Shown here piece after piece: positions 4,756-31,940 of a stretch of 32,133 nt of DNA. The stretch spans positions 1-32,133 of the forward strand of contig JAIOYV010000078.1 in the NCBI GenBank assembly GCA_021740905.1, written 5' to 3'. The notes under the pieces were generated by a model. It did no database searches. It saw nothing but the letters and a program-made list of their open reading frames with translations, and was not told the origin of the DNA. Within the stretch, counting starts at the first letter, position 1. Each line of letters starts with the position of its first letter. The translations under genes and the position numbers were made by a program. The stretch comes from Bacteroidales bacterium. GTDB taxonomy: Bacteria > Bacteroidota > Bacteroidia > Bacteroidales > M50B96.

Positions 4756-4777
4756 AAAAGATTTTTAATTGCCTGAT

Positions 4778-7700: not shown

Positions 7701-7834
7701 CCGTGGTAATAAAGATTGACGGGCAGAAAAACATTGGGATGGTTATGAAACCAAAAACTGAGCGTGAAGATGCAAACCAAGATCGGGGTGATGCGTTGGT
7801 TTCAAAAGGGATTATTTTGAATTTAGAGGATTAG
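4778..7834 (+). CDS. Two receiver-like domains fused to a PPDK/PEP-synthase ATP-grasp domain
   Basis: A 1018-residue cytoplasmic protein, counted from ATG 4778 (a TTG at 4769 is the alternative). The first receiver-like domain (about 30-165) has lost the phospho-acceptor: the expected Asp position in LVITMPSGG is not Asp. The second (about 175-325) looks intact: acidic pair Glu183-Asp184 in LLVEDS, Asp253 in IITDM, Ser in IQSS and Lys306 in FIHKAS. Residues from about 430 match the PPDK_N ATP-binding domain of pyruvate phosphate dikinase/PEP synthase: GSIGGKARGLAF, IAVRSSSLLED with AGIYSTY, and NVLQIRPI near the end of the core. Unlike true dikinases, I see no phospho-His swivel motif and no PEP-utilising TIM barrel; about 190 unassigned residues follow. 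The substrate is therefore unknown. It lies 48 bases upstream of gdhA on the same strand and may share its transcript. Confidence 0.85.
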   Translation: MEMPKITSKDVNEQKYYFAETSFNQLMRTRISQVLLICSTYDAFTLEEDGRIDEQIFMEYVSLNLRYPPHFIHASTTDRAMEILSEGKTDLVITMPSGGDMDVFELAKKIKSEYEETPIVVLTAFSREVSLKLHHEDMSAIDYVFSWLGNADILLAIIKLIEDKMNVEEDVFEVGVQTILLVEDSVRFYSSYLPNIYKIIFQQSKTFMREGLNEHQQMLRMRGRPKILLARNYEEAIGLYEKFKSHLLGIITDMAYERNGKLDNRAGIKLCERVKADDQYMPILIQSSEIKNKLMAKLIKVGFIHKASKTLSMELRTFIKEFFAFGDFKFIDPDTNKVITTASDLRSLQEVIYQIPDSCLQYHIDRNHFSKWLNARALFPIAEVFKYLRPEDFANLDQIRRFLFDTIANFRQNKGRGIISKFYRERYDEYQIFSRIGEGSIGGKARGLAFVDSLIKRNYLLDKFDNVIVTIPRTVVLSTDVFDEFMEGNDLYKIGLSDLSDEAILDKFVNSALPVRIHKDLYSFIRVMTNPIAVRSSSLLEDSHYQPFAGIYSTYMIPLIKSDECAMLDMLSNAIKSVYASVFYKDSKAYMSATSNMIDEEKMAIVLQEVCGKAYGDRFYPTISGVARSVNFYPIEPEKPEDGIVNIAFGLGKYVVEGDTTLRFSPKYPKKILQLSTADMALRETQKKFYSLDLNCKNFKVSINDGINLNYERIKEAEKDSNLKYVASTYDFQNNIIRDGINYEGKKIITFANILKYDTFPLPEIISSLLEVSQREMNNPVEIEFAVNLDVPPNHPKIFNVLQIRPIVDNKEKIDEDLELIKENETIIHSHSVLGNGIISDIKDFVYVKPESFHPSKTRDIATFIGTLNDSFIAAKKNYILVAPGRWGSSDPWLGIPVKWSQISAARLIVESGLENYRIDPSQGTHFFQNLTSFKVGYFTINPFTNDGYYDLEFLSESKAVYEDEFVRHIEFMQPVVIKIDGQKNIGMVMKPKTEREDANQDRGDALVSKGIILNLED

Positions 7835-9707: not shown

Positions 9708-9784
9708 CTCAGAACTTTGAACTTTTAACTTTGAACTTTGAACTCAGAACTTTGAACTTTGAACTTTGAACTTTGAACTCAGAA
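9708..9784. repeat. Right arm of inverted heptad repeat B
   Basis: Eleven uninterrupted heptads: CTCAGAA, CTTTGAA, CTTTTAA, CTTTGAA twice, CTCAGAA, CTTTGAA four times, CTCAGAA. It ends nine bases before the SUI1 start codon. The units are the reverse complement of those at 9227-9254, so the two arms flank the four-helix-bundle gene as inverted repeats. Confidence 0.85.
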
Positions 9785-9793
9785 CTTCATATT

Positions 9794-16418: not shown

Positions 16419-18032
16419 TCAATTCATCCACCACACTTTTGTATTTGTATTATCGCCCTGCGAGCCATATCGCTCCGTATAATTTGCGCTGTTGTGGTTT
16501 TTTTCGCTGGGAGGAATGGGCAGCCTGAAAAAGTTTAGGTCATCCCCTTCCCGGGGTGTTTGCATGGTTTGCCGGGCAAAAGCAAAAGCTTCGCAGGGTT
16601 GCATAAAAAGGTCGATCCATCGCTGGGCATAAATCAGTTCGAGGCTGACAGCAAAGTTGGTGGCCGATTCCCAGTTACCCACATCCAACGATGTTGGTAC
16701 GTCAATGTAAGACCCAAATTCATTTCCGTACCTAAGCTCTGAAACTTTCATTACATTTTTCCACGCGACCATTGAGGCTTGCACCCCGTTCCATAATTCA
16801 ATAACAGCCTTACTGGCGTCTTCTGGTACTCCAATCCCTCTATAATAGGCCTCGGCTTTTATCAGGTGGACTTCGGAACCTGAGATCAGGATTTCAGGGA
16901 TATTGAGTTCGTCGCTAGCCAAAAAGAAATTGACAGGGGAGAAAGCACATCCGGCACCCTTATCAAAAAACAAAGAATCCACTTCGCGATTACTACTGTA
17001 AGGATTCCCGCCTTCTGATGGGTAACTTGATGTATCAGATGGATAGGGTGCCCATACACCGGCATTGTTGGTCTCGAAAAAGTAAAATAGACGGGGATCG
17101 ATAATTTCGCTATTCACAATAAATTGATCCCATATTGAGGTGCTCATCCTCAAATTGGGCTGTTGGGAAAACGACCAATACTTGCCCGGGTTTTCGTATC
17201 CATGCGAGACGGGTGTTATCTTGGCCTGTTCTAAAACCGGGCTGGCAAAGTTGACCCCTACAAGTACCGGAAGGTTGTTGTTGATGATTTCAGCAATAAT
17301 TTCGCCGGCCAACTCAGGCTCGGCATCGGCCATGCGCATGGCATAGCGTAATCGGAGCGAATTGGCAAACTTCCTCCAATTGGTGAGGTTGCCCGAAAAT
17401 AGGGCATCGTATTTTATGAATTCCACATATCGCCCGGTATCTACAGCAGTAGGTGCAAGTAAAGTGCTGTCGGCCCAGGCCAGTTGAGCCAGAAGGGTTT
17501 TGTAAATGCTTTCCTGGCTGTCGAATTTGGGTAGTTTGTTAAATTCTTGATAAGCATATCCGGCTTCGGAAAAAGGGATATCGCCAAACAGGTCGGTCAC
17601 TTTAAAAGTTTTGTAAGCCAGCAAAATACTGAGCATGGCCTTCATGTTATTCGCATTTACATTCACAATTGTTGTGGAGTCGGTATCATTTACCGTGGGG
17701 GTCATCTGGCTTATCCTTTTTTCCAACTCCCTGAAATTAGGCAAGACACTGTAATAGTTCGACCAAATTTCTTCCGTGCCTGGCGTAAGGCTACTGTTTG
17801 CAGGATGAGTCAATGCGGCCAGTTGTGTCTGGGGGTACAAGATATTGTTATTGATGTACAGGTTTTCGTTCTTGCCTATCCTCAACGAATTCAATATCCC
17901 GTTCAGCAAAGCGCCGTCACTCGTGATCACATACGTGTCTTGTTTGTGGTTGATATCGTCGAAGTCTTTTTTGCACGAAACAAACAAAAGAAAGGCTAAT
18001 AGTAATGTGGAGATATAAATATTCAATTTCAT
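16419..18032 (-). CDS. SusD/RagB-type outer-membrane lipoprotein (SusD-like_2), pair 1
   Basis: A 537-residue surface lipoprotein. The signal peptide ends in LLFVSC with lipobox Cys20, followed by KKDFDDIN. It resembles the SusD-like_2 (PF12771) group: YYSVLPNFRELEKR, LLAYKTFKVTDLFGDIPFSEAGY, KFANSLRLRYAMRMAD and the C-terminal QRWIDLFMQPCEAFAFARQT with ending GDNTNTKVWWMN. SusD proteins cap the SusC barrel and capture substrate. It is 18 bases downstream of its SusC partner, the last gene of the minus-strand locus. It is a clear paralogue of the protein at 21390-23006. Confidence 0.93.
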   Translation of the reverse strand: MKLNIYISTLLLAFLLFVSCKKDFDDINHKQDTYVITSDGALLNGILNSLRIGKNENLYINNNILYPQTQLAALTHPANSSLTPGTEEIWSNYYSVLPNFRELEKRISQMTPTVNDTDSTTIVNVNANNMKAMLSILLAYKTFKVTDLFGDIPFSEAGYAYQEFNKLPKFDSQESIYKTLLAQLAWADSTLLAPTAVDTGRYVEFIKYDALFSGNLTNWRKFANSLRLRYAMRMADAEPELAGEIIAEIINNNLPVLVGVNFASPVLEQAKITPVSHGYENPGKYWSFSQQPNLRMSTSIWDQFIVNSEIIDPRLFYFFETNNAGVWAPYPSDTSSYPSEGGNPYSSNREVDSLFFDKGAGCAFSPVNFFLASDELNIPEILISGSEVHLIKAEAYYRGIGVPEDASKAVIELWNGVQASMVAWKNVMKVSELRYGNEFGSYIDVPTSLDVGNWESATNFAVSLELIYAQRWIDLFMQPCEAFAFARQTMQTPREGDDLNFFRLPIPPSEKNHNSANYTERYGSQGDNTNTKVWWMN

Positions 18033-18050
18033 GATACTGTAATTTTGAAG

Positions 18051-21000
18051 TTAAAATTTAGCATTGATCCCAAATGAAAATGTACGTGTGCCAGGCATCG
18101 CGCCATATTCGAAGGCTTGCGCGTTACCAGCACCTAAAATGCCCTCGGGGTTTATGTTGTCAGGTAGGGTGGTGTACAAATAGCCAACATTACGGCAGGT
18201 AAAATTGACCGACAAGCCTTGCACGAATTTTATTTTCCGGATCAAATCAGTGGGCAGTGTATAGCTCAGTGCCACTTCCCTTAGTTTGATATAAGAATTT
18301 TCGACAATACCAGGGCGCGAAATGGTTTGCCCGTACCCGCCCGAGTTGGGCATGTACTTGTAATAGTAGTGTACCACAGTTGTATTTTCGGAGCCGTCGG
18401 CATACACCCCATCGAGGATCACCCCTGTGTTGCTGGTGGTTCCATCGGGGCTGGTGTATGCCACTCCGCCGCCATCGCGTTCCAACAAGGTTTCGGGGCT
18501 TTGACCGCTTAGCAAGCCGTACACATAAGACCCAGAATAAATCTCCCCTCCAATTTTAGCATCGACCAAAGCAAACAAGCTGACGTTTTTATAAGAAAGT
18601 TTATTTGTCCATCCCAAGAAAAATTTAGGGGCGATATTGCCAATGGGCATTTTGGTTTCTGATATCAGATAATGAGTACCATCATCAGAAACTACCCGCT
18701 CCCCATCGATGTATTGATAGTCGTATCCGTAAATAGTACCGTACTGTTCGCCTTTTTTCACGCAAAGCGATGGGCTGTTTTCGCCGTCAAAATTTCCTAT
18801 TTCAATGTATTCGGCACCGCCCAAATCTAGTACTTCGTTGGAGTTTTTGCTGAACGACAAACCGGTGGTGTAATAAAAATCCTTGTTTTTGATGGGGGTC
18901 GATGTCAGTGCTATTTCTATCCCGGTGTTTGAAATTGAGCCTATGTTAGTATTGATAATGTATGCCCCGGTCGATGAGGCTGCCGGCGAGGAGATGATCT
19001 GATCCGATGTTTCTGACTTATAATAGGTAATGTTGAAGGAGAACAGATTGTTTAAGAATTCGGCATAAGTACCAAGCTCGAAGGAATTAGTTTGCTGGGG
19101 TTTCAGCTTAGTGTCGGGCACAATGCCGGAAAAGACAGTTGCCTGGTTGTTTCCAAAAGCACTTGCCGAATAGCTCCAGTCCAATAAATAGGGATCGGCA
19201 TCTATTTTTGTTTGATAGAAACCACCGCGTACGTTCCAATAGCTCAACAAATCTTTGTCGAGGTTAAGCGCATTGGATGCCACAAAATTAGCCGATACCG
19301 ATGGGTAGAAATAGGAGTTCTCGTCGCTGGGCATAGTCGACGACCAATCGTTTCTTCCGGTTACATCGACATATAAAAAGTTGCTGTACGACAGGGTAAG
19401 GAAAGAATACATCGACAACAGTTTTCGCTTGTAGATATTCTCGGTAGCGGCCACCAACGACCCGGGGTCGCCAACGGTAGTGTTGCTTGTACTGGTAAAG
19501 TTCGAGAACGTATATTTGTTCGGGTAATACCATGTCCCGGAATTTCCACCTTCAGAGTAATTGTCGACCAATAAGCTGCTCCCGCCCACACTAAATTCGA
19601 CACCAATTTTCGAATCCGAAATATTGTCCTTTTTTAGGGCCAACAGAAAACTATTGCTGTTGCTTTGTGTACGCCCCATGTCCTTGGCAAAGTGCCCGCC
19701 TTCAAGCCCCACCAGGTCGATGGGTTGGTGGCGTGTTTCCCACCGGTCGTAACCAAAGTTTATGCCTGTTGAACATACAAATTTCAGCCAGGAGGTAACA
19801 TCATAAGTAGCCACGACCGTACTTGTCAGGTTCGACCGGAACAGTTCGGTGTTGTGTTTTTGGTAGCCCCACCAGAAATAAGGATCGATATGGCCGTACG
19901 GAATACCTGTAAGATCGGTGCGGGTGAAATTGGGTTTTTGGTAATTATGAAAATCTTCGCCCTGGTAGCTGCGGGGCCACGAGTACAGCAAGCCTTTGCC
20001 GATAGATGCCGAATCGTCGCCCAGCATGGGGGAGTTTTGGTGGTAATAGTCCAGGTAGCTGGCCGATATGTCAACCATCACTTTGTCGGAAGCCCTGATG
20101 ACAGAACTTACACTGATGGTAGTCTGATTAAAGTTGCTGTTGTACACGATAGGCCTGGCATCGGTGCGCGAAACCGACAAACGCATGGTTGCCCATTCGT
20201 TGCCCCCTTCAACCGACAGGTTGTGCTGGGTAGATGTCCCATTGGTGAACGGCAGTTTAATGTTATCGGGTTGAGGCGACCAGGTTTTTGTAGTGCCATC
20301 CCACCATTTTATTTCTTGTCCGTTCATTTCGGGACCCCACGACGAGGAGGTGCCGAATTTTCCAAATTCGTTGCTCGTGGTCGAATATCCATTCTGCAAT
20401 ACCAACGAGTCGTTGCTTTGCAGGGTTGGGTACAATAAGTTTCCTTCGCCATCCACCTCAAACGAAGGGGCATTTAAGGATGTTGGGGATCCCGCTCCAT
20501 ATTTATTTTGGGTTTCGCGGTAGCGATAAGGCTTTTCGATATTGTAGGTAAAACCATAAGTGACCCCAAGACCTGGCTTGACAGCCCCCTTCTTTGTGGA
20601 AATCAATATGGCACCATTCGCTGCACGAGGGCCATAATAAGCCGCCGCCGCATTGCCTTTTATAATATCGACCGTAGAAATATCGGTAGCCAGTAAGTGG
20701 TTGATTTCCGAACCCCAATCCTGCCCCCTCGACGGGTTGACCATGCCCGGGTTGTTTTCGATGGGCATCCCGTCTATTACAATCAGTGGTTGGTTATTGC
20801 CCCTAATGTTGTCGTTGCCACGAATGGTTATCCTGGTGGTGCCACCATTCACGCCATCGGGGTGGGTAACCTGCACGCCTGGCATAAGACCTGTCAATGC
20901 ACTTATCACATTGTTTGCTCCCGACAGTTCGATCTTATCTCCGTCTTCATGCCCGCTCGCATAACCCATTTCGAATACAGGCTTTTCTTTTCCCGGTAGG

Positions 21001-21326
21001 ATAGGGATTTTTACATTGTTGGGTTTTGGAAAAATTGGCATCAGCCCTACATTCACAACTGCCAACTTGCCAACCGGTACATTCTGTACATGGTGTTCGT
21101 CGAGGCTAAAAACAAGGATGTCGTTTTCGGAAATACCTTCCATTGTAAACGTGCCGTCCTCATTCGTAGTTGCACTTTTGTCTTTTCCCAAAACCTGGAT
21201 GTTTACCTGGCCCAGAGCCGAGCCATCGTCGGTTGATGTGACTTTGCCTGTAATTGCTTTTTCTTGTGCCCCAACCATTGCCGCGAGGCCCATCAATAAA
21301 ACAAGTAGTGTTATATATTTTTTCAT
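18051..21326 (-). CDS. SusC/RagA-type TonB-dependent transporter, pair 1, with divergent TonB-box region
   Basis: About 1091 residues from ATG 21326, chosen because MKKYITLLVLLMGLAAMVGA is a typical signal peptide; an ATG at 21377 would add 17 residues ahead of it. Order of parts: carboxypeptidase-like regulatory domain (about 22-95), plug (NNVISALTGLMPGVQV; RITIRGNDNIRG; PLIVIDGMPIEN), 22-strand barrel, and the C-terminal GTRTFSFGINAKF. The usual linker motif resembling EVVVTALG before the plug is missing; residues about 99-125 read PKPNNVKIPILPGKEKP instead. It starts 63 bases after the stop of SusD pair 2 and precedes its SusD by 18 bases. The C-terminal 100 residues are very similar to the transporter of pair 2, so the pairs arose by duplication. 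Confidence 0.93.
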   Translation of the reverse strand: MKKYITLLVLLMGLAAMVGAQEKAITGKVTSTDDGSALGQVNIQVLGKDKSATTNEDGTFTMEGISENDILVFSLDEHHVQNVPVGKLAVVNVGLMPIFPKPNNVKIPILPGKEKPVFEMGYASGHEDGDKIELSGANNVISALTGLMPGVQVTHPDGVNGGTTRITIRGNDNIRGNNQPLIVIDGMPIENNPGMVNPSRGQDWGSEINHLLATDISTVDIIKGNAAAAYYGPRAANGAILISTKKGAVKPGLGVTYGFTYNIEKPYRYRETQNKYGAGSPTSLNAPSFEVDGEGNLLYPTLQSNDSLVLQNGYSTTSNEFGKFGTSSSWGPEMNGQEIKWWDGTTKTWSPQPDNIKLPFTNGTSTQHNLSVEGGNEWATMRLSVSRTDARPIVYNSNFNQTTISVSSVIRASDKVMVDISASYLDYYHQNSPMLGDDSASIGKGLLYSWPRSYQGEDFHNYQKPNFTRTDLTGIPYGHIDPYFWWGYQKHNTELFRSNLTSTVVATYDVTSWLKFVCSTGINFGYDRWETRHQPIDLVGLEGGHFAKDMGRTQSNSNSFLLALKKDNISDSKIGVEFSVGGSSLLVDNYSEGGNSGTWYYPNKYTFSNFTSTSNTTVGDPGSLVAATENIYKRKLLSMYSFLTLSYSNFLYVDVTGRNDWSSTMPSDENSYFYPSVSANFVASNALNLDKDLLSYWNVRGGFYQTKIDADPYLLDWSYSASAFGNNQATVFSGIVPDTKLKPQQTNSFELGTYAEFLNNLFSFNITYYKSETSDQIISSPAASSTGAYIINTNIGSISNTGIEIALTSTPIKNKDFYYTTGLSFSKNSNEVLDLGGAEYIEIGNFDGENSPSLCVKKGEQYGTIYGYDYQYIDGERVVSDDGTHYLISETKMPIGNIAPKFFLGWTNKLSYKNVSLFALVDAKIGGEIYSGSYVYGLLSGQSPETLLERDGGGVAYTSPDGTTSNTGVILDGVYADGSENTTVVHYYYKYMPNSGGYGQTISRPGIVENSYIKLREVALSYTLPTDLIRKIKFVQGLSVNFTCRNVGYLYTTLPDNINPEGILGAGNAQAFEYGAMPGTRTFSFGINAKF

Positions 21327-21389
21327 CTTACAGATGTTTAATAGGATTGCCATTATTTTGTCGATTCCTGTTTTCATAATTCCCCCCGT

Positions 21390-23006
21390 TTATTCCATCC
21401 ACCACACTTTGGTCGTGCTAAAATCGCCTTGCGCACTATAAGCACTTTCGTAGTTCTGTAAATTATTGTCTTTTTCAATATCAGGTATCGGAAGCCTGAA
21501 ATACTCCAGGGGGCTTCCTTCGCGTGGGGTTTTCATGGTCCTTCGGCAAAGGGCAAAGGCCTGGTCTATTTGCCTGAACATATCGATCCAGCGCTGTGTA
21601 TAGATCAGTTTCAGTTTATCATCGGTGGACGATACGTTGGAGAAGCCCATTTTATCATTCACACTGTCGAAATCCAGGTTTGAAGGCACCGTGATTTTTG
21701 AAGAGAAATATCCGCCTTGCGAAAGCTTTAAATGTTCGGCAGTAAACTTCCAGAAATCGAGCGATAATTTTATCCCGTTTTCAAATTCGGTTTGGGCCAT
21801 TGCCTCGTTTTGGGCAACCCCAATACCACGCAAGTAAGCTTCGGCTTTTAGGAAATGGACTTCGGCCCCGCTGATCAAGATGTTGGGCGAATTGTACCCA
21901 TCGCTTACCAGGAAGTAATTGAAGGGGGAATAAACACATCCGTCGCCTTTAATGGCAAAGGAAGCGTCGAAATTTCGTTGCGACCCATAAGGCGCGCCCT
22001 CGTCGGGGGCAGTGCCGGTGGGGACAATCTGTGGGAAAGCTGCCCATTCGTTGTCGTTGTTGGTTTCGAAAAAATAATACACCCGTGGGTCGAATATGCC
22101 GCTCCCGTCGGTGTTGTCGTTTTCCGAAAACTGATGCCAAAGGTTCGATCCCATGCGCACGTTTTTATGCTCGTAAAACTCCCACCAACCCTGGAAATAA
22201 TTCAATTTGTAGGGCCAAAGGGCGACACACGAGTAATCGATATTGGCACTGTCGACTTCCAATTCCCCGATCAGTGGCTTGTTGTTGTTCATGATGTCGC
22301 CAATTATTTCGGCAGCCAGGTCCGGGTTTTTATTTACAATCCGCATGGCATGGCGCATCCGCAACGAATTTGCAAACATTTTCCATTTGGCCAAATCGCC
22401 ATTGAATATATTTTCGAATACGGCAAAAGTCTTATATGGGTCTTCGGTTGCCGATGGGTCTATGTTTTCTTCACACCATTTCAGTTCATCCAATATATAG
22501 AGATAAATTGATTCCTGGGTGTCGAATATTGGGTGCAGGTTTTCTGAGCTTATAAACCCGTACCCGGCTTCCGAAAAGGGTATGTCGCCAAACAAGTCGG
22601 TAACCTTGAATGTAGTGTAGGCCAGCAATATTTTTACGATGGCCCGCATGTTTGTTACTTCGGCCGATGGTGGCAAAGCGTCGAACCGCCTTTCGAGTTC
22701 CCTGAAATTGGGCAGTGTCCCATAATAGTTTTTCCACATCTCTTTGGTGCCCAAGGTATAGGTCGACCATGCCTCCTTGGTGAGTGTCCCTAACTGGCTT
22801 TGTTTATAGAGGACCTCGATGTGTACATAGAACCTTTCGTTTACGCCCGAGCGCAAAGACCCGGTTATCCCGTTCAACAGCGAACCACTGTTTGCCGTAA
22901 CAAAATCGTCGGGGTCGGTATTGATATCTTCGAAGTCTTTTCTACACGAATTCAATAGTATGCTACCTAAAAGCACTGTCAACAATATTGTAATTTTCCC
23001 TTTCAT
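21390..23006 (-). CDS. SusD/RagB-type outer-membrane lipoprotein (SusD-like_2), pair 2
   Basis: A 538-residue lipoprotein. The signal peptide ends in ILLNSC with lipobox Cys21 followed by RKDFEDINTDPDDF. It has the same family blocks as pair 1: YYGTLPNFRELERR, LLAYTTFKVTDLFGDIPFSE, MFANSLRMRHAMRI, QRWIDMFRQIDQAFALCRRT, and the ending GDFSTTKVWWME. It would act on the cell surface as the lid of the SusC at 23026-26481, 19 bases upstream. The substrate is not predictable from sequence. The SusD-like_2 group differs from the classical starch-type SusD, and some RagA/B-type systems import peptides, which would fit a glycopeptide substrate in this locus. Confidence 0.93.
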   Translation of the reverse strand: MKGKITILLTVLLGSILLNSCRKDFEDINTDPDDFVTANSGSLLNGITGSLRSGVNERFYVHIEVLYKQSQLGTLTKEAWSTYTLGTKEMWKNYYGTLPNFRELERRFDALPPSAEVTNMRAIVKILLAYTTFKVTDLFGDIPFSEAGYGFISSENLHPIFDTQESIYLYILDELKWCEENIDPSATEDPYKTFAVFENIFNGDLAKWKMFANSLRMRHAMRIVNKNPDLAAEIIGDIMNNNKPLIGELEVDSANIDYSCVALWPYKLNYFQGWWEFYEHKNVRMGSNLWHQFSENDNTDGSGIFDPRVYYFFETNNDNEWAAFPQIVPTGTAPDEGAPYGSQRNFDASFAIKGDGCVYSPFNYFLVSDGYNSPNILISGAEVHFLKAEAYLRGIGVAQNEAMAQTEFENGIKLSLDFWKFTAEHLKLSQGGYFSSKITVPSNLDFDSVNDKMGFSNVSSTDDKLKLIYTQRWIDMFRQIDQAFALCRRTMKTPREGSPLEYFRLPIPDIEKDNNLQNYESAYSAQGDFSTTKVWWME

Positions 23007-23025
23007 GATAAATGCTTTTTAGTGG

Positions 23026-26000
23026 TTAAAATTTTGCGTTTATTCCAAATGTGAATGACCGTGTGCCGGGCAGCGACCCCCATTCAAACCCCTGTGCATT
23101 GCCCGACCCCATGATCCCCTCGGGGTTGATTTTGTCGGGAAGGGTGGTGTATAGATAGCACACATCGCGGCACACAAAGCTTACGCTCAGTTCCTGGGCA
23201 AATTTTATTTTGCGTTTGATCTGTGGTGGCAGGGTGTACGACAGGGCTACTTCGCGGAGCTTTACCCAAGAGTTTTCGAGTACCCCGGGGGTGGAAATAA
23301 AATTGCCCCAGCCTCCCAAATTAGGTAAATACTTGTAATAATAATGGACAACTTTGTCGTTCGATTCGCCGTTTTCGTAGACCCCGCCCAGGGTAACCCC
23401 AATATTGCTTTCGTTGCCGTCGGGGTCGGTATAGGGCAATCCGCTACCGTTGCGTTCCAACAAAGTCGCAGGGCTTTGCCCCAGCGACATGGCTTCAACA
23501 TAAGTGCCCGAATAAATCTGGCCTCCAATTTTTGCATCGACCAGGGTGCCCAGCGTAAGGTTTTTATATTTGAATTCGGTGTACCATCCACCAATAAACT
23601 TTGGGCTGGCATTCCCAATGGGCACACGGTTTTCGGTTATCAGGAATTTTGTCCCTTCTTCGTTTACCATAGGTGGGCCTTTTACATAATCATCCGGGTT
23701 AAACCCTTCAATTGGAAAATACCCTTCAGGTATTTCGTTTAGGTTATCATGATAATTGTATCCTATTGGCAGAGCCTGTCCATCATACTCTTCATAATAA
23801 TCATAATCCCAACCGTAAATGGTGCCATATGATTCACCTTCTTTTACCATCATATTTGGCCCGTTACCGCCCCATATTTTTCCTATCTCTACGGATTCGA
23901 CTATCCCAAGGCTTTCTATCTTATTGCTGTTCTTCGCAAAATTCACACCTGTCCGGAATACAAAGTCGTTGGTGCGGATCGGGACGGTGTTCAGGATAAT
24001 CTCGACCCCTTTGTTCGAGATAGCCCCATTGTTGATGGTCATAAATTCGGCACCTACCGATTGAGCGATTGGCGATTCGATGATTTGATCGAAAGAATAA
24101 CTGTAGTAATAGGTAAAATCGAAGGTGATCCTGCCATTCAGGAATTCTACTTCGGTGCCAGCCTCATACGCATTGGTCATCTGAGGTTTTAACCCAACTG
24201 CAGGTATTTTATTTGGGTACGAAACAGCCTGGTCGCCCCCCAGAAAGCTTGAGTCAAAAGAGAAACCACTCTCATAAGGGTCGGCATCGATGGCCGATTG
24301 GGCTATCCCTCCCCTTATTTTCCAATGGCTCAGCCATGCGCTTTCGAAATTAAATGCCTGGGTGGGAAAAAAGCTGACAGAAATGGAGGGGTAGAAATAT
24401 GAATTTGCATCGGAGGGCAAAGTGGACGACCAGTCGTTTCGCCCTGTTATATCCAGGAAAAGGTAATCGTTGTAGGAAATATTCAGAAAGGAATACACCG
24501 AGTTTATCTTTTTTCTCCAGACTTTTTCCTCGGCCCTTATATCATTAGGCTGAGTGGCTGAAGGGGTTGATGACCAGGAAGGGACGTAATTCGAGAATGA
24601 ATACATGTTTGGGTAATAGGAGCCACCCTTGCTTCCCTGTAAATAATAATTGTTTTGCGACCAGGTGTTCCCCCCAAAGTTAAATGAGACATTGAACGGA
24701 GATGCGAAAATATTGTCGCGGTAGGCAGTAAACAAAAAGTCGCTGTTGTTCCCCCTATTCTCGCTCAACGATTTTGCATAACCCAGGCCGGTAAGGTAGG
24801 TGCTGTCGGTAGGGGAATTTCTTGTTTCGCTTTGATCCAGGCCAAAATCCAACCCGGTGCGGCCCATAAACTTCAACCAGGGGGCAACATCGTAGGAAAG
24901 CGAAATGGTGCCTAATATTTTCGATCGGTCCAAGGTGGTGTTGTTTTCAAATATGCCCCACCATAAAGTGGGACTGATGTACAGATATGGAAATCCGTTT
25001 TGCTCGTTCCTTGTCCCGTCAGGGTTCATGTAACCAGTTCGGTCGGCCCCCTGGTACGACCGGGGCCACGAATATACAAAGCCTTTTGTAAATGAACTTT
25101 CGTCGTCGCCCAAACCAGGGGAATTAAGCCTGTGGAAATCGATATAGGAAGCCACCATGTTGACTTTTATTTTTTTCGAAACATTGACCAACAGGTTTGT
25201 ATTCACTGTGGTTTGGTTCGACGAGCTGTTCTCGATAATGGGCTTTAAGTCGTTCCTGGTAAGCGAAAAACGGGCTGTGGCTATTTCATTGCCCCCTTCC
25301 ACCGCAATATTGTGGGTTACCGAAGAACCATTTTGAAAAGGCATTTTCATATTGTCGGGCTGTGGCGACCAGGTGGTCATTTCGCCATTCCACCATTTTA
25401 TTGGTTCCCCGTTCATCCGTGGCCCCCACGATGCGCCTGAGCCATAGTAGCCAAATTCCTCGTGCGAGTCTCCAACACTGCCTGCCGTGTCCAAGATTAA
25501 TGCTGAGGTTTCATACATGGAATTGAACACATAGCTTGTGAAGCGAGGATGCAAGCCTCCAATGTCGCCAAAGTGGTCATTCAAAAAATCAACCATTTCA
25601 CTCCCTGCCGTATCTTTATATAATTTCGGAGGTGTGAAACTTATGGGGCCACCGCCGCCATATTCGTTTTGTACATCACGGTATCGGTAGGGGGTCACAA
25701 TTTTGTTGGTGTAATTGTAGGTTACCCCTATGCCTTTTTGTACGCGGCCTTTTTTGGTAGTGATGAGTACCACGCCATTTGCCCCACGCGATCCATACAA
25801 TGCCGAGGCTGCCCCTCCTTTCAAGATATTGATGCTGGCCACATCGGACGATACAATGTTGTTGATGGCCGAACCCCAGTCCGTTCCCCTTCCAATATCT
25901 TCGAGGCCAGGCTGGTTTTCCAAGGGCATCCCGTCCACCACGATCAGGGGCTGGTTGTTGGTATTGATGTTGTTGTTTCCCCGTATCACAATCCGGGTCG

Positions 26001-26481
26001 TGCCCCCTTCCACACCATTGGCATCGCTAATCTGGATGCCGGCAGTTTTTCCGGCCAGGGCACTCATCACATTGCTGGCATTCGATTTTTCAATGTCCTC
26101 GCCGCTCACTTTCTGGGTCGAATAGCCAATTTCTTTTTGCTGCCTATTGATACCGAGGGCCGTTACTACCACTTCGTTCAATTTATTCGCAGTCGGGCCA
26201 AGTTCAACATTAATGACAGTTTGGGTTTTTACCTCTATGCTTTTGGTCTCTAGCCCTATAAAGCTGAAAACAATAATGTCGGAGGACTTGACATCAGTAA
26301 TTTTATAATTGCCATCAAGGTCGGTCGACACCCCTTTCGTAGTCCCTTTGATGAACACCGAAACATAAGGGAGCGGTTCGCCATCTTCCAAAGATGTTAC
26401 AGTCCCGGAAATAGTTTTCACCTGGGCACTCAGCATAAAAGTGATAGCCATCAAAATGAAAAGAGTAAATAGTTGTTTCAT
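23026..26481 (-). CDS. SusC/RagA-type TonB-dependent transporter, pair 2
   Basis: About 1151 residues from ATG 26481 (signal peptide MKQLFTLFILMAITFMLSAQ). A TTG at 26520 would give a poorer N-terminus and overlaps the likely -7 promoter element. It has a complete SusC layout: regulatory domain (about 22-95), canonical NEVVVTALG linker at about 102-110, plug with SALAGKTAGIQISDANG and IRGNNNINTNNQPLIVVDGM, barrel, and the C-terminal SFTFGINAKF. It imports large oligomers across the outer membrane using TonB energy, together with the SusD encoded directly downstream. It is the first transporter of the locus after the two PNGase F-like genes and a 246-bp spacer. Confidence 0.95.
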   Translation of the reverse strand: MKQLFTLFILMAITFMLSAQVKTISGTVTSLEDGEPLPYVSVFIKGTTKGVSTDLDGNYKITDVKSSDIIVFSFIGLETKSIEVKTQTVINVELGPTANKLNEVVVTALGINRQQKEIGYSTQKVSGEDIEKSNASNVMSALAGKTAGIQISDANGVEGGTTRIVIRGNNNINTNNQPLIVVDGMPLENQPGLEDIGRGTDWGSAINNIVSSDVASINILKGGAASALYGSRGANGVVLITTKKGRVQKGIGVTYNYTNKIVTPYRYRDVQNEYGGGGPISFTPPKLYKDTAGSEMVDFLNDHFGDIGGLHPRFTSYVFNSMYETSALILDTAGSVGDSHEEFGYYGSGASWGPRMNGEPIKWWNGEMTTWSPQPDNMKMPFQNGSSVTHNIAVEGGNEIATARFSLTRNDLKPIIENSSSNQTTVNTNLLVNVSKKIKVNMVASYIDFHRLNSPGLGDDESSFTKGFVYSWPRSYQGADRTGYMNPDGTRNEQNGFPYLYISPTLWWGIFENNTTLDRSKILGTISLSYDVAPWLKFMGRTGLDFGLDQSETRNSPTDSTYLTGLGYAKSLSENRGNNSDFLFTAYRDNIFASPFNVSFNFGGNTWSQNNYYLQGSKGGSYYPNMYSFSNYVPSWSSTPSATQPNDIRAEEKVWRKKINSVYSFLNISYNDYLFLDITGRNDWSSTLPSDANSYFYPSISVSFFPTQAFNFESAWLSHWKIRGGIAQSAIDADPYESGFSFDSSFLGGDQAVSYPNKIPAVGLKPQMTNAYEAGTEVEFLNGRITFDFTYYYSYSFDQIIESPIAQSVGAEFMTINNGAISNKGVEIILNTVPIRTNDFVFRTGVNFAKNSNKIESLGIVESVEIGKIWGGNGPNMMVKEGESYGTIYGWDYDYYEEYDGQALPIGYNYHDNLNEIPEGYFPIEGFNPDDYVKGPPMVNEEGTKFLITENRVPIGNASPKFIGGWYTEFKYKNLTLGTLVDAKIGGQIYSGTYVEAMSLGQSPATLLERNGSGLPYTDPDGNESNIGVTLGGVYENGESNDKVVHYYYKYLPNLGGWGNFISTPGVLENSWVKLREVALSYTLPPQIKRKIKFAQELSVSFVCRDVCYLYTTLPDKINPEGIMGSGNAQGFEWGSLPGTRSFTFGINAKF

Positions 26482-26517
26482 GATTAGTATGTGTATTTTA
26501 ATTATTGTTTTCCTGAA

Positions 26518-26525
26518 CAAATATA
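26518..26525 (-). promoter_or_regulatory. Putative -7 element before SusC pair 2
   Basis: Read on the minus strand this is TATATTTG, an exact TAnnTTTG match, about 37 bases ahead of the ATG at 26481. No good TTTG lies at the expected distance, so this is a partial promoter match. It would let the SusC/SusD genes be expressed separately from the PNGase-like genes. Confidence 0.4.
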
Positions 26526-26603
26526 AAAATTATGTTTGCGTTGATTGGTGTACATGAGACAAAATCCTGTGAATAGATGATGATTTCCCATTTCTATTTC
26601 AGA

Positions 26604-26699
26604 ATTGGAGTGATGTACTGTTGGAGTATTGGGAAGGTATTTTCAAAGGTCACTCCATTACTCCATTACTCCATTACTCCATTACTCCATTACCCCAAT
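26604..26699. repeat. Inverted octad-repeat element D (8-bp units)
   Basis: Five perfect tandem copies of ACTCCATT (26652-26691) followed by ACCCCAAT (26692-26699). To the left, in the same 8-nt register (offset 48 = 6 x 8), are ATTGGAGT (26604-26611) and GTTGGAGT (26620-26627), reverse complements of the right-arm unit. It lies between the PNGase-like gene end and the SusC promoter. It could form a hairpin that attenuates or terminates read-through between enzymes and transporters. Confidence 0.7.
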
Positions 26700-26727
26700 T
26701 CGTTTGACATTTTCTATCCAAATTATT

Positions 26728-29235
26728 CTATTGAATAATCAGTTTTTTAACCTCCACATTTTCATCCGCCTGGATTTTTATCATATATAATCCTTTTGCG
26801 TACGAAGTCAAATCCTTGGTGATAGTTTCTCCCTTCAAGGTCAATTGTTCGACCAATTGCCCGCTTACATCGAATATTTGCATCGAAACCGGGTTGGAGC
26901 TTGATTCTCTGATCACCGAAATAGTAACTTCACGTTCTGCCGGGTTGGGCGACATTTGCACTTCGAACGGAGATTGTACCTTTGCGTTTTCAATTTCGGT
27001 ATAGATCAATTCGTTGCTGTAGGTAATCAAATTCCCCGAGATGATGTAATTTGGGTTATACCCATCGTTGCAATCGGAGCAAGTTACCCCTGTTATGCAA
27101 TCGGGGTGGCTGGGGTGGCACAAATCAACATAACCAGGATAGAATTCATACACTATTTCAACATTTGCCAAATTTACGTAAGGTGTTAAATCGTATTCGT
27201 ACACAGAACTTATGGAGCCTGGGCACCACCCGGCCCGGTTGTGAAACCAGGTCCCACTTTGGGGTTGGCACCCATCGGGGTTGGGGTTACACACCACCCA
27301 AAGATGTTGGTTGAATTCATCATTGTTTACCTTGATTTTATGCGTAGCTTCGTAGAATTCTGCAGCATTGCCCGTATTCAAATCGCCCCAGCCATGGCCT
27401 GTGTTAATGACTTTTAATTTCGCTGAAAGGGCATCGGCGGGGTAAAGCCAGTTTATCGTATCCATAGGCTGGAGGTTTGCATAATTCCCGAAAGGGAAAG
27501 TGCCGCGCCAGATCACATCTACCCAACTGTAAGTATAAGTAGGCTCGCCTGCCTGGAAATCGAAACTCAAATCGACTACATGACCATTTTGTGATATGCC
27601 GCTATTGTATCTTACTTCAACAAGTCCTTGTAGCAAGGAAGAATAATCCGTGACATCAAGGCTATGGTCGCAAGCAACACCATAAGAGGTGATGTACCGG
27701 AACAACTCCACCCATTGGCCTGTTGGCCCCCTTACTTCTAAACTGGCAACACGGTCCCAAGGCTCGCAACCTCCGGCGGGGCACGTAATATCTAAGTAAG
27801 TGGTAATATTGTCGAAAGCACCCGCAAAGGTAGGGAACTCAAAATCGGCAGTTTGGGTGGCATTGCTTCCTGTAAATTCGACCCCGGTAAAGGTGGGTAT
27901 CGAAAGATTGGAAATGGTCTGTGTAACCTCAAAGCTTACCGTATTTGTTTCAACTACCGGTCCAGTAGTGGTCACATTTACAGTCAGGGTATAAGGGCCA
28001 TAAGCCGGAGGAGTCCATTGGGCTGTATTGTAGCCGGTGTTCCATTTCTCCACACCCAAGCTTTGACTATCAATAATAAACTCGACATCCTCAATTTCCA
28101 ACACCTCGGGATGTTCGATATAGGCAGATGCCACCAACATAATGGGTTTCAAGGTTGACATGTAAACCATTGTATTGTTGGCTGGCCTTCGAATGGTAAG
28201 ATCTGCCGAATATGCTTGTGGGTCGACCACTTCGAAGGTCTGGAACACATCGGGGGCAGCAGCCCAGGTAGCATTGCCAGGCTGGCTTGCCTTCACAGTA
28301 ACAAATCCAGCAGTACCATTGAGGGTAACGGTATTTCCAACTATCGTGGCAGGCCCGCTGCTTATTTCAAATTCAACAGAAAGTCCCGAGCCAGCTGTCG
28401 CAACCACATCAAATGGTTGATCGGTAGTCAATTTATTTGAAATGGCGAGCATCTCGATAAATTGCAATTGACCGGTACTTGCCGGTTCCCGAATTAGTAA
28501 ATTGTCGAAACCGGCAGTGCCACCTTGTCCACGTATAAAGACTCCATCCCAAACCAGACGGTCAAGTTTATCGCCCGAACCGGGTGTAAGCCCCATGTTT
28601 ATACCTTGTATTTCGGGAATTGCCTGCCACGTTCCAGTCAGGCCCGGTTTTGAAAAAAGGGCCACAGCTCCCAGGCCACCATTGGCCGCAAAATCCAGGA
28701 CCATTTTATATCGCACCCATCCGGCATTGTTGTTCACAAAAACGACCGATGAGCCATTGGGTAACACTATTTTGTTGTTGGCAGCGCTTTGCTGGGCAAT
28801 ATTTACATAAATGCCGCCATCGTTTGGTTCAGTGGCCAATCCTACTGCAATATGTCCATCCCCATCGGCATCGAAGCCAACACCATAGCTCATCGACCAA
28901 TAATTCCTGTGCATGTCGCACTCGAACTCGATGACATCGTTGGATGTAAAATCGAAATTGAAATTCGCGCTGGCCTTCCGGGTCCCGCATCTTCCATACC
29001 CGGCACCACTGGCATTGTAATACACAAACAGGCTCCCGTCGGGATGTACGACACTTCCAACGCCATAATCCACATTCAAATCAGATGGACCTGTTGTGGT
29101 AAGGATTGTATGCCAATTGTCCTGCCCATCCAGGCCACCAATGGACAGGCTGTTGAAATCGTAGGTGTGTTCGATCTGGGCATGTAGGCCAGGTGAAAGT
29201 ACCGCTAATAAAATCAAGAATGTAAAGTGTTTCAT
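26728..29235 (-). CDS. PNGase F-like secreted protein with T9SS sorting domain (paralogue 1)
   Basis: About 835 residues from ATG 29235 (signal peptide MKHFTFLILLAVLSPGLHA). Domains: beta-rich lectin/laminin-G-like module (about 21-255), two Ig-like modules (about 265-340 and 345-440), PNGase F-like double jelly roll (about 450-743) and a T9SS type A sorting domain (about 760-835, MSPNPAEREVTISV to KKLIIQ). Compared with Elizabethkingia PNGase F, the CPAGGCEPWD block places Asp494 at catalytic Asp60, and GNAAEFYEATHKIKVNN places Glu626 at Glu206. NRAGWCPG is also conserved. No acidic residue is seen at Glu118, and the Cys204/Cys208 pair is absent. A cysteine cluster C-x6-C-x5-C-x2-C precedes the sorting domain. 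It probably removes N-glycans at the cell surface or outside the cell, or binds them if inactive. It follows paralogue 2 by 10 bases. Confidence 0.85.
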   Translation of the reverse strand: MKHFTFLILLAVLSPGLHAQIEHTYDFNSLSIGGLDGQDNWHTILTTTGPSDLNVDYGVGSVVHPDGSLFVYYNASGAGYGRCGTRKASANFNFDFTSNDVIEFECDMHRNYWSMSYGVGFDADGDGHIAVGLATEPNDGGIYVNIAQQSAANNKIVLPNGSSVVFVNNNAGWVRYKMVLDFAANGGLGAVALFSKPGLTGTWQAIPEIQGINMGLTPGSGDKLDRLVWDGVFIRGQGGTAGFDNLLIREPASTGQLQFIEMLAISNKLTTDQPFDVVATAGSGLSVEFEISSGPATIVGNTVTLNGTAGFVTVKASQPGNATWAAAPDVFQTFEVVDPQAYSADLTIRRPANNTMVYMSTLKPIMLVASAYIEHPEVLEIEDVEFIIDSQSLGVEKWNTGYNTAQWTPPAYGPYTLTVNVTTTGPVVETNTVSFEVTQTISNLSIPTFTGVEFTGSNATQTADFEFPTFAGAFDNITTYLDITCPAGGCEPWDRVASLEVRGPTGQWVELFRYITSYGVACDHSLDVTDYSSLLQGLVEVRYNSGISQNGHVVDLSFDFQAGEPTYTYSWVDVIWRGTFPFGNYANLQPMDTINWLYPADALSAKLKVINTGHGWGDLNTGNAAEFYEATHKIKVNNDEFNQHLWVVCNPNPDGCQPQSGTWFHNRAGWCPGSISSVYEYDLTPYVNLANVEIVYEFYPGYVDLCHPSHPDCITGVTCSDCNDGYNPNYIISGNLITYSNELIYTEIENAKVQSPFEVQMSPNPAEREVTISVIRESSSNPVSMQIFDVSGQLVEQLTLKGETITKDLTSYAKGLYMIKIQADENVEVKKLIIQ

Positions 29236-29245
29236 AAGTATATTT

Positions 29246-31816
29246 TTACTGAACAATTATCTTCGTAATTTGAACATCTTTCTCATCAGCAACTTTTACA
29301 ATATAAAGACCTTTCGGGGATGAAGAAAGATCTATATTCTCTGCTTCGCCGTTCCAATAACTCTGCTTTACCACTACGCCAGACACATTTAAAACCTGCA
29401 CTAAAACCGGTTTGTTAAATATCCTACTGGATGAAAGCCTGACGATCCCTGTCGTTGGGTTTGGTGCAACGGCTATGTTTAGCTGTTTAGGGTTATGGAT
29501 CGAAACTGCTGTCCAGTTTGGGATTGGCGGTTCGTCAAAATAAGTAATAAGCTGACCGGCCACGATAATTACCGGATTGTACATATTGTCGCAGTCGGTA
29601 CAGGTTATCCCGGTTACACAATTGGGATTGTAGGGGCTGCACAAGTCCTGGTAGGTTGGGTCTAGCTCGTACATAAGGTCGAAGGTTGTTCCTATTTTGG
29701 CGGATAAATCGAAGCGCCAAAGCATGGGGATTGATCCCGGGCACCAACCCGAACGGTTATGGTACCACGTTCCGCTTTGAGGCTGGCAACCAACAGGGTT
29801 TGGATTGCAGGTAGCCCACAGATGTTGGGTAAATTCGGTCGTCCCATTTATTTTGATATTGTGGGTCGATTCCCTGAATTCGGCAGCATTGCCGGTGTTT
29901 AGGTCGCCCCAGCCATGCCCCGAGGACATTTCGCGCAAAAAAGCCTCCTCTACCGGGGCGTGATAGCTTGAATCTTCCAAATCAATATTTACAAGCGGGA
30001 CAGGCTGCAGGTTTCCGATAGAACCAAAGGGATATTGTGCCCCCCAAAGTTTATCGACCCATGAGAATTTGTGGGCAGGCGTTCCCGCATAATATTTAAA
30101 CTTGATGGTGATGACCGATTTTGCAGGAAACTTTATCTTGACATGTACCTTTCCCTGTAATTGAGATACAAAATCGGTTACATCGATGCTATCCTGGCAG
30201 GCCACGCCATAAGGGGTGATGTAGGTGAAAAGCTTGATTTGTTCGCCATTGGCACCTGTGATGTACACGTCGGCGTTGGTGTCCCATTCTTCGCATCCAT
30301 CGGGAGGACAATCGTAGTCGAGGGTGGCAACCACCTGGCTAAAGGTGCCTGCAAAACTGGGGAATGTCACCGTAGAATCAACCGATCCAATAGTGGCAAA
30401 GTGTACATGGTCGAGCAATGTGAAAGTCGAACTTGCCGTAGAGCTGACTACATTAAAACTTAAGGACTTTGAATCGGAAACCCCGAAATTGCTTACCACT
30501 GTGGCAGACAAATTATAGGTACCCAAGGCTGGTGGTGTCCAATAGGCAATGTAATAGCCATTGTTTGTTGGATATGCATTTATCTGTTGGGCATCAATGG
30601 TGAAAAAAACTTCATCGACCGAAAGTAAATTGTCGAATTCGATTGTGGTGGCTGCGGTTAAAAGTATTGGGTCTAAGCCAGGAGCGTTTACCTCTTTTGT
30701 GTCAACCGGGTTTTTGATTTCTATTTCAGGTACCACCACATAAGGGTCGATAACATTAAAGGAAACCGTGTCGTTTTGGGCAGGGGCTATTGTTGCGTCT
30801 CCTGCCTGGCTTGCCACAACCGACACGATTCCTGGCGAACCTGTCAGGGTGATCATGTCGCCTGAAATAGTAGCTGGTCCCGAAGCAATAGTGTATGATG
30901 GTGTTAGCCCTTTGTTCGATATGGCATGGGCCGCAAAAGATGGGTCGGTGGTAAGATGGTCGGGGATCGGGTCAAAAATCAGGTACTGGTATTGCAATCC
31001 ACCGGTATTGGGCTGCCGCAAAATTATATCGTCGAAACAAGTCAGGCCGGTACCGTGTATCAGTAGTTTTGTCCACATCGCCGGATCCTTTCTATCGCCC
31101 GAGCCGGGTGTCAACCCTAAATTCAAATTGGCCACCGACGAACAGCTTACCCAGTTCCCTTCGCCATTTTGCTTATAACTGAGCGATATGCTCCCGGCCC
31201 CTCCATTTGCATCAAAATCGAGGATCATTTTGTAGGTGTACCAATAGGCATTTAAACTATCGTTGTTTATGTTTAGGGGGATGTAAGTACCGTCGGGCTT
31301 GATAAATACATTGTATTGAGAGTTTCCTTGCGACAAATGGATGCCAATCCCCCCATCGTTTGGTTCGAATTGCAGGGTATTCTCAATTCCTTTTAAGGTA
31401 ATGCCATTGTTGTTGCTGTCGTAGCCAAAGCCGAAATAGGTTTTCCAATACCCCCGTTTTATGTTCACCTGTATTTCCATTACCCCGCCAATGGAAAAAT
31501 CGAAAGGCAAGGAGTCGGTGGTCAATCTCGAAGCCGTGCGGCCCACGTTGGTGTTCTCGCCATCATAAGCCATGAACAACGATCCGTCGAGGGCAACTTT
31601 GCCCCATTTGTTTGAATAGGTAAGATGCCAGTCGTCAAGTTCGGGGTTGGGCGAGTTGTTCTGGTTTGTCACCGTTGTCCAATCATCAACCCCATCCAAA
31701 TAATTAGTCATCGACAGATTGTTAAAGTCATATTTGTGCTCAAACATTTGAGCATTGACATGTCTACTGGTAAGCAAACAAAGGATAATCAAAAAAGGTA
31801 AGGTAGACTTTTTCAT
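29246..31816 (-). CDS. PNGase F-like secreted protein with T9SS sorting domain (paralogue 2, first gene of locus)
   Basis: 856 residues from ATG 31816, signal peptide of about 22 residues ending VNA. It has the same architecture as the downstream paralogue: lectin-like module (about 23-268), two Ig-like modules (about 275-455), PNGase F-like region (about 465-760) and T9SS sorting domain (about 780-856, VAPNPTTGIVRLS to TKIIVQ). CPPDGCEEWD puts Asp512 at PNGase F Asp60; GNAAEFRESTHNIKI puts Glu647 at Glu206; NRSGWCPG is conserved. The Glu118 region is shortened and lacks an acid. The same C-x6-C-x5-C-x2-C cluster is present near residues 725-742. It is the first gene after the promoter near 31911-31940, so it probably leads an operon with the paralogue and perhaps both SusC/SusD pairs. 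Confidence 0.85.
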   Translation of the reverse strand: MKKSTLPFLIILCLLTSRHVNAQMFEHKYDFNNLSMTNYLDGVDDWTTVTNQNNSPNPELDDWHLTYSNKWGKVALDGSLFMAYDGENTNVGRTASRLTTDSLPFDFSIGGVMEIQVNIKRGYWKTYFGFGYDSNNNGITLKGIENTLQFEPNDGGIGIHLSQGNSQYNVFIKPDGTYIPLNINNDSLNAYWYTYKMILDFDANGGAGSISLSYKQNGEGNWVSCSSVANLNLGLTPGSGDRKDPAMWTKLLIHGTGLTCFDDIILRQPNTGGLQYQYLIFDPIPDHLTTDPSFAAHAISNKGLTPSYTIASGPATISGDMITLTGSPGIVSVVASQAGDATIAPAQNDTVSFNVIDPYVVVPEIEIKNPVDTKEVNAPGLDPILLTAATTIEFDNLLSVDEVFFTIDAQQINAYPTNNGYYIAYWTPPALGTYNLSATVVSNFGVSDSKSLSFNVVSSTASSTFTLLDHVHFATIGSVDSTVTFPSFAGTFSQVVATLDYDCPPDGCEEWDTNADVYITGANGEQIKLFTYITPYGVACQDSIDVTDFVSQLQGKVHVKIKFPAKSVITIKFKYYAGTPAHKFSWVDKLWGAQYPFGSIGNLQPVPLVNIDLEDSSYHAPVEEAFLREMSSGHGWGDLNTGNAAEFRESTHNIKINGTTEFTQHLWATCNPNPVGCQPQSGTWYHNRSGWCPGSIPMLWRFDLSAKIGTTFDLMYELDPTYQDLCSPYNPNCVTGITCTDCDNMYNPVIIVAGQLITYFDEPPIPNWTAVSIHNPKQLNIAVAPNPTTGIVRLSSSRIFNKPVLVQVLNVSGVVVKQSYWNGEAENIDLSSSPKGLYIVKVADEKDVQITKIIVQ

Positions 31817-31887: not shown

Positions 31888-31940
31888 TGTTAGTGTAAAT
31901 AAAACACTAACAAAAATAGTTGTTTTTTACATTCTTCAAA
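31888..31940 (-). promoter_or_regulatory. Promoter and palindromic operator of the PNGase-like/SusCD locus
   Basis: On the minus strand TTTG (31940-31937) and TATTTTTG (31918-31911) form a -33/-7 pair with an 18-nt spacer, slightly short of the usual 19-21. A 9-bp perfect inverted repeat, TGTTAGTGT (31888-31896) and ACACTAACA (31904-31912) with a 7-nt spacer, overlaps the end of the -7 element and covers the expected start site. This is a likely repressor site, or a hairpin at the 5' end of the mRNA. The leader to the ATG at 31816 is about 85-90 nt. Confidence 0.6.

Follow-up and report, generated by a model that had tools for sequence, protein, structure and literature searches.

Genes for peptide-N-glycosidases (PNGases) of Bacteroides group 2 (type II) adjoin susC/susD genes, in B. 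sartorii only a susC/D pair (PMC9522356). In Capnocytophaga canimorsus, the Gpd complex unites SusC/SusD proteins with a surface enzyme that removes N-glycans, which are trimmed later by enzymes encoded elsewhere (PMC3128124). Tails for the type IX secretion system (T9SS) are reported for PNGaseDo and PNGaseL, and PNGaseDo, whose N-terminal part comprises three beta modules, belongs to a set of six enzymes assayed on N-glycoproteins (PMC12381499). As far as the covered parts of these sources go, PNGases beside susC/D, multi-module T9SS PNGases and SusC/SusD (SusCD)-based deglycosylation are already in print. Here we analyzed a contig of 32,133 bp from a Bacteroidales bacterium (JAIOYV010000078.1, hereafter the window), which is one whole contig (C159) of a 6.5-Mb, 160-contig genome (G000). 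Six minus-strand genes, from 31816 down to 16419, encode two T9SS-type PNGase F-like proteins (PNGase A and PNGase B) and two SusCD pairs. We consider it fairly probable that this locus is an N-glycan acquisition system coupled to fucose use. Its parts are of known kinds, and what looks new is their compact, fucose-wired arrangement. A partial literature search met no description of an order-wide PNGase-SusCD unit or of the fucose link, and a prior description is possible.

The comparison with the described systems brings out both shared and distinct features. The Bacteroides group 2 enzymes have Gly at the position of Glu118 of PNGase F, as does PNGase B, but most of them carry an N-terminal bowl-like domain, and the covered part of the source names no T9SS tail for them (PMC9522356); our locus combines a PNGase pair with two SusCD pairs, and its palindrome recurs at a fucose operon. 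The enzyme of the Gpd complex is an endo-beta-N-acetylglucosaminidase lipoprotein, GpdG, accompanied by the lipoproteins GpdE and GpdF (PMC3128124), whereas here the protein is of the amidase type and predicted to be exported by T9SS; a GH18 match, which a Gpd-type enzyme would give, was not found among the 16 window proteins scanned. In the covered part of the report on PNGaseDo and PNGaseL, most of the six genes are called orphans, an operon is named for PNGaseRz only and no SusCD link appears (PMC12381499). For regulation, the closest parallel is found in Bacteroides, where the NrtR-type regulators AraR and XylR head monosaccharide operons (PMC3878776). Here, a regulator of this type heads a fucose operon; in B. 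thetaiotaomicron, by contrast, FucR belongs to the GntR family and its reconstructed regulon is a single operon (PMC3878776).

All six open reading frames (ORFs) lie on the minus strand and their families were verified by Pfam, NCBIfam and PDB sequence searches, which bears out the preliminary description of six co-directional genes. PNGase A (29246..31816, likely start ATG 31816) has a signal peptide, one or more N-terminal modules lacking a Pfam match, a PNGase F-like catalytic match at aa 478-718 and a T9SS type A tail at aa 783-856. PNGase B (26728..29235) is built alike, with a signal peptide, an N-terminal module lacking a Pfam match, a catalytic match at about aa 451-706 and a T9SS type A tail at aa 769-842, counted from TTG 29256. 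As this listed TTG overlaps gene A, we refined the likely start to ATG 29235, codon 8 of the listed ORF. SusC1, a TonB-dependent transporter (23026..26481), likely starts at ATG 26481, codon 14 of an ORF open from TTG 26520. It is followed by SusD1 (21390..23006), SusC2 (18051..21377) and SusD2 (16419..18032), with likely starts at 23006, 21377 and 18032. By these starts the genes are separated by 10-19 bp, except where PNGase B and the SusC1 ORF are 207 bp apart. This larger gap contains an 8-bp tandem repeat of 5.8 copies (26652..26697), and the six genes may form two transcription units split there.

Both PNGase proteins match the Pfam family N-glycanase_C (E 1.4e-10 and 9.7e-10) and, above cut-off, the T9SS type A sorting domain (TIGR04183/PF18962); they are 42% identical to each other. 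Comparison of both proteins with crystal structures of PNGase F, the enzyme of Elizabethkingia meningoseptica, using phmmer gave E-values of 2e-24 to 4e-23, and a profile of 31 homologues matched PNGase F (3pms, 1pgs, 1pnf) over the catalytic region with E about 1e-44. Pfam N-glycanase_N (PF09112) was uninformative, being found neither in the genome of the window nor in 14 control genomes; it is missing from the Pfam scan of the window proteins at E 0.05, while phmmer still aligns that region to PNGase F. We then surveyed active-site residues in a 59-row alignment, counting rows with a letter at the column. Asp60, Glu206 and Glu118, which we take to be the classical active-site residues of PNGase F in role and numbering, behave differently. 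Asp60 is kept in 58/58 rows, Glu206 in 59/59 and Arg248 in 58/58, both window proteins included. The Glu118 column, whose assignment to PNGase F through the profile alignment is alignment-dependent, holds E in 11, G in 10, P in 10 and A in 9 of 57 rows, with other residues in the rest. In the window, Glu118 is replaced by Gly in PNGase B and lost with a shortened loop in PNGase A; across the wider PNGase F superfamily this residue appears to be dispensable. At the position of Trp191, both window proteins differ from PNGase F in having His, as 57 of the 59 rows do, in agreement with a report that names histidine there and PNGase F as the exception (PMC12381499).

The Gly at the Glu118 position is shared by PNGase B and a second pair of paralogues in the same genome (contig C29), not by PNGase A. 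In the type II enzyme of E. meningoseptica, Gly at that site opens the pocket for core alpha-1,3-fucose (PMC9522356), which suggests that PNGase B could accept this modification, found on plant, algal or invertebrate glycoproteins. The "orange" loop of the superfamily is described as having an aromatic-D-positive/aromatic motif (PMC12381499); PNGase B conforms to it (WDR) and PNGase A deviates (WDT), with no positive or aromatic residue after Asp60. Regarding the N-terminal part, 33 of the 56 rows of the PNGase tree carry a LamG-type module and are the commoner partner of SusCD; the window proteins belong to the other group (23/56). A profile match to 7zgn was weak (E 5e-5) and restricted to chain positions 350-509, and the bowl-like N-terminal domain was compared by sequence alone. 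A profile scan of wider genome contigs with two N-terminal patterns returned one distant planctomycete locus (L011), which we did not use; nor did we use an AlphaFold2 model of the two window PNGases, built from a 2-row alignment, with a mean pLDDT of 35.5.

Next to these enzymes, SusC1 and SusC2 score 548 and 412 bits with OMP_RagA_SusC (TIGR04056, cut-off 368), and the two SusD proteins score 162 and 175 bits with SusD-like_2 (cut-off 27). Each SusC thus adjoins a SusD-family protein in which a lipobox-like Cys follows the signal sequence, the arrangement that defines a SusC/SusD transporter pair. The 31-residue signature TIGR04057 passes its cut-off of 46.2 in SusC1 (57.1) and falls short of it in SusC2 (38.3). 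SusD1 and SusD2 are 46% identical, SusC1 and SusC2 47%. A scan of viral contigs with SusC1 confirmed no relative.

To analyze whether the genes occur together elsewhere, PNGase and SusD1 queries (P0001 and P0003) were each searched in one set of 393 genomes from this order. At E<=1e-30, 43 genomes, spread over 29 of the 206 genera, have a PNGase homologue, and 38 of them have one at E<=1e-80; SusD1 homologues were found in 39 at E<=1e-60. All 38 genomes with a strong PNGase match are among the 39 with SusD1, G257 has the SusD only, and 354 have neither at these cuts (Fisher 3e-52, uncorrected for shared ancestry). The PNGase cut of E<=1e-80 was picked after the table had been seen, and it excludes five genomes with PNGase E-values of 1e-38 to 1e-50 and no SusD match (G148, G169, G228, G346, and G359). 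At 35 of 40 SusD places outside the window, a same-strand PNGase lies within 5 kb, a count that leaves out L007 (the C29 pair) and L075 (the same place as L130). Among the other five, L121 and L126 lie at contig ends, L112 is the second SusCD of a tandem SusC-SusD-SusC-SusD-PNGase run, and L117 (G096:C19) and L122 (G257:C1) are related SusC-SusD genes with no adjoining PNGase, the latter with a FecR anti-sigma gene upstream. The association of PNGase and SusCD is thus beyond chance. Because it recurs in many families of the order, the preliminary reading of a glycoprotein or N-glycan locus, drawn from T9SS PNGases and SusCD, gains support, and the lack of co-occurrence that the same description had named as an objection is not what we observed.

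In a sample of the phylum, only 2 of 395 genomes match at E<=1e-60, the genome of the window and one other, which suggests that the PNGase-SusCD unit belongs chiefly to this order. The commonest order in the fetched neighbourhoods is SusC-SusD-PNGase. PNGase-PNGase-SusC-SusD occurs in G041, G353 and the window (there with a second SusCD), PNGase-SusC-SusD in G320, and PNGase-SusC-SusD-PNGase in G180 and G077. The doubled SusCD pair of G006 (C43; L068/L112) is an instance from another family. When linking was strict, no set of recurring third-party neighbours covered 3 or more of the first 42 stretches; when it was loosened, the largest sets covered 5, 4 and 3 loci and yielded no consistent neighbour. 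These 42 stretches mostly lacked the side upstream of SusC, which was fetched later for part of the loci, and only part of the 87 same-strand neighbours was scanned with Pfam, so further enzymes may be present. At 5 loci (G173, G392, G211, G200, and G269) among the 76 fetched stretches searched, a gene for a LacI-type regulator overlaps SusC or lies immediately before it.

The fucose link comes from the region upstream of PNGase A, where the contig ends after 317 bp. A perfect 8-bp inverted repeat, GTTAGTGT-N7-ACACTAAC (31889..31911), lies 72 bp before the ATG of PNGase A and is a candidate operator. It shares one base with the -7 box of a promoter-like site on the minus strand, TTTG-N18-TATTTTTG (31911..31940), resembling the Bacteroidota promoter consensus TTTG ... 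TAnnTTTG. The promoter pattern has 3 matches in the window on both strands against 1.36 expected, so this site is weak on its own. Allowing spacers of 5-9, the palindrome is found at two places in the 6.5-Mb genome and the reversed control pattern at none. The other exact copy (G000:C137:33809-33831) ends 3 bp before the regulator gene of a complete L-fucose operon, and the two places also resemble each other in the flank that holds the -7 box. On one strand, this operon encodes an NrtR_WHD/AraR_C regulator, a GH29 fucosidase, a class II aldolase and FucP, then a 389-aa protein that matches nucleotidyltransferase and GHMP-kinase families, FucU, FucI, FucK and a GH29 gene truncated where the stretch ends. 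Tolerating up to 3 mismatches adds 16 places in the genome, compared with 55 for the reversed control, and we treat them as chance; one of them (C136:15524) lies inside an ORF. The leader RNA fold is unremarkable (z -0.91). We conclude that the six-gene locus is probably controlled together with the fucose operon through the shared candidate operator. As for the identity of the regulator, we had considered an equivalent of Bacteroides FucR and dropped it, since FucR of B. thetaiotaomicron is a GntR-family protein, the NrtR family being represented there by AraR and XylR (PMC3878776).

Genes for fucose use also accompany related PNGases in other genomes. In G269, which has the closest relative of PNGase B (62%), the genes PNGase-PNGase-NagB-like-GH29-LamG/T9SS-FucP form a single-strand run whose gaps after PNGase B measure -3 to 65 bp, and FucI follows beyond an opposite-strand ORF; the PNGase B gene of G269 appears to be interrupted close to the 5' end, with two matching ORFs, and was read as found. 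The NagB-like gene of this run (L057:11669-13996) encodes a 775-aa glucosamine-6-phosphate deaminase-like protein, which suggests joint use of fucose and GlcNAc. G221 has the order SusC-SusD-PNGase-DUF5074/T9SS-GH29. Moreover, the PNGase F C-terminal domain and GH29 are joined in single ORFs in the genome of the window (L150:1617-4946, G000:C152, 1109 aa) and in G002 (L151:4364-7714, C8, 1116 aa). On C152, another GH29 gene follows the fusion. The preliminary description had stated that no glycoside hydrolase is present: this holds among the 16 window proteins scanned with Pfam (some short ORFs lie outside the scan), where the CAZyme genes next to SusCD that characterize classical polysaccharide utilisation loci are likewise absent up to the contig end, and it does not extend to the G269 and G221 relatives, which have GH29 in the same gene run. 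The genome of the window has 5 GH29 matches, the C137 fucose operon and C152 being among those listed, and 3 matches to the GH92 mannosidase family.

We then compared glycoside hydrolase families between 38 carriers of the unit and 42 unmatched other genomes, with counts uncorrected for ancestry. GH29 was found in 38/38 carriers and 22/42 others (p 1.5e-7), GH92 in 37/38 and 26/42 (p 7e-5), and the control family GH43 in 14/38 and 23/42 (p 0.12). The comparison genomes are G001, G002 and 40 genomes hand-picked at near-even handle steps, not matched for size or lifestyle; two of them (G158 and G212) are less than 90% complete, the carrier G003 is 60% complete, and one GH92 match among the comparison genomes is weak (G076, E 2.5e-4).

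From gene content, family membership, catalytic residues, conserved linkage and the shared palindrome, all read directly in the DNA, we infer activity, surface site, uptake of glycan and not peptide, regulator and inducer, and the fucose linkage as follows. PNGase A and B would exit the cell through T9SS and, given the homology with PNGase F, at least PNGase B would release N-glycans from glycoprotein asparagines at the cell surface or close to it. Based on what is known of SusCD and on the gene linkage, the freed oligosaccharides would be imported by SusC1D1 and/or SusC2D2, to be broken down by enzymes encoded elsewhere, including GH29 fucosidases and GH92 mannosidases. The shared palindrome points to the NrtR/AraR-type regulator that heads the L-fucose operon as the one that would control both operons, with fucose or a fucose intermediate as the signal for fucosylated N-glycans.

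Several observations weigh against this reading. Apart from the window and the fucose operon, no exact copy of the palindrome was found in the fetched stretches, which total 1.5 Mb: the nearest other site, with 1 mismatch, lies inside a PNGase ORF of G109 (L076), and sites with 3 mismatches precede SusC by 119 bp in L099 and by 224 bp in L113. Among the 31 carriers searched, the own genome included, the regulator has homologues (36-47% identical) in 10 of the 30 others, from which no common operator was derived; the shared candidate operator is seen in the own genome only. The variable Glu118 column, the WDT of PNGase A and the unmatched genomes behind the GH29 and GH92 counts count on the same side, as does the C29 PNGase pair, which has neither an adjacent SusCD nor the palindrome. 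Finally, among solved structures SusC1 is closest to BT_2264 (E 2e-73; next 1e-34), whose complex has been seen with peptide (PMC7782687).

Because SusC1 is nearest to BT_2264, peptide uptake is also conceivable: the PNGases may open glycoproteins to proteases, the deglycosylated peptides being imported by SusCD as in RagAB and BT2263-64. The SusD proteins also match PF12741 ("Susd and RagB"), no glycosidase was seen among the scanned window proteins, and one relative (G320) has a peptidase M16 gene upstream. We nevertheless regard such protein feeding as unlikely. The palindrome is common to the locus and the fucose operon, the G269 run includes GH29 and FucP, GH29 and GH92 are commoner in carriers, and the best solved relatives of SusD1 are surface glycan-binding proteins; the first 42 neighbourhoods have no consistently recurring neighbour family, proteases not having been searched as such. 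The preliminary description had left uptake of glycans or of deglycosylated peptides side by side; the shared palindrome, the G269 run, the fusions and the GH29 counts strengthen the glycan side, and overall the sequence evidence favours a fucose-containing glycan over peptide as the nutrient.

The division of labour could also be different, with PNGase B as the enzyme, PNGase A having a new specificity or binding glycans only, and each SusCD pair serving a different product. All five rows of the PNGase A clade (window, G109, G041 twice, and G353) have T, V or L after Asp60, where the other 53 rows with a letter have R, H, K or Y, and a shortened Glu118 loop, with Asp60, Glu206 and Arg248 kept; in G200, too, an A-type protein has a B-type neighbour, the A-type there keeping WDR. 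However, the catalytic pair is intact in PNGase A, and the long SusC2 and SusD2 branches fit divergence without showing it, which makes this arrangement improbable in our view. Still more doubtful is an action on another amide, such as bacterial or archaeal asparagine-linked glycans or a PHM-like reaction, instead of eukaryotic N-glycans. Glu118 is not conserved and the family extends as far as a distantly related animal protein in the PDB (9lwg), but the match to PNGase F over the catalytic region, the conserved active-site residues and the fusion to, and gene runs with, fucosidase leave this a very small chance.

A broader view can be put forward tentatively, as a possibility we hold to be somewhat less than even. 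The locus could represent a distinct and widespread type of N-glycan locus, in which a dedicated SusC/SusD clade and a T9SS multi-module PNGase, with nothing else in the commonest form, would make up a unit kept in many families of the order and wired to monosaccharide regulators (NrtR-type here, LacI-type elsewhere) with a glycan sugar as signal; the PNGase A clade would have a new specificity, and PNGase-fucosidase fusions would be a related solution. The use of N-glycans as a carbon source by non-gut Bacteroidota is little described in the literature covered, and a conserved PNGase-SusCD unit, if true, would provide a genomic marker for an N-glycan diet. With the shared palindrome, both a signal (fucose) and a regulator are available for direct testing. 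For glycobiology, the many PNGases of the family, which differ in their active sites and include some with a predicted tolerance of core alpha-1,3-fucose, are of interest as tools, as are the natural PNGase-fucosidase fusions.

To understand how the paired genes arose, we built quick-method trees of SusD proteins above 450 aa (40 rows), SusC proteins above 900 aa (21 rows) and PNGase ORFs above 780 aa (56 rows). SusC1 and SusC2 are sisters (SH-aLRT 96), as are SusD1 and SusD2 (SH-aLRT 84), and both pairs fall in a group with G041, G109, G320 and G353. PNGase A and PNGase B do not pair in this way; six rows from other families join A (100), and a protein of G200 joins B (95). As the transporters pair and the PNGases do not, the trees place the SusCD duplication in this lineage, and the PNGases are old paralogues or separate transfers. 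The branch of SusC2 is long (1.23), which makes its placement less sure, and that of SusD2 is long too. The preliminary proposal that each component is a tandem paralogue pair, diverged for two substrates, thus stands in form only: the SusCD pairs result from a duplication in the lineage, by these trees, and the PNGases group with other families.

The C29 pair (L007:8762-13842) consists of tandem T9SS proteins with a LamG N-terminus. A divergent LacI-type regulator lies beside it, and a downstream gene has protein-mannosyltransferase family matches. Elsewhere in the window, further short tandem repeats lie in or beside intergenic regions at 9712-9787 (7-bp x 10.9), 4645-4685 (21-bp x 2) and 4547-4604 (14-bp x 4.1), and positions 4769-7834 encode a 1021-aa protein with matches to a response-regulator receiver and a pyruvate phosphate dikinase ATP-binding domain.

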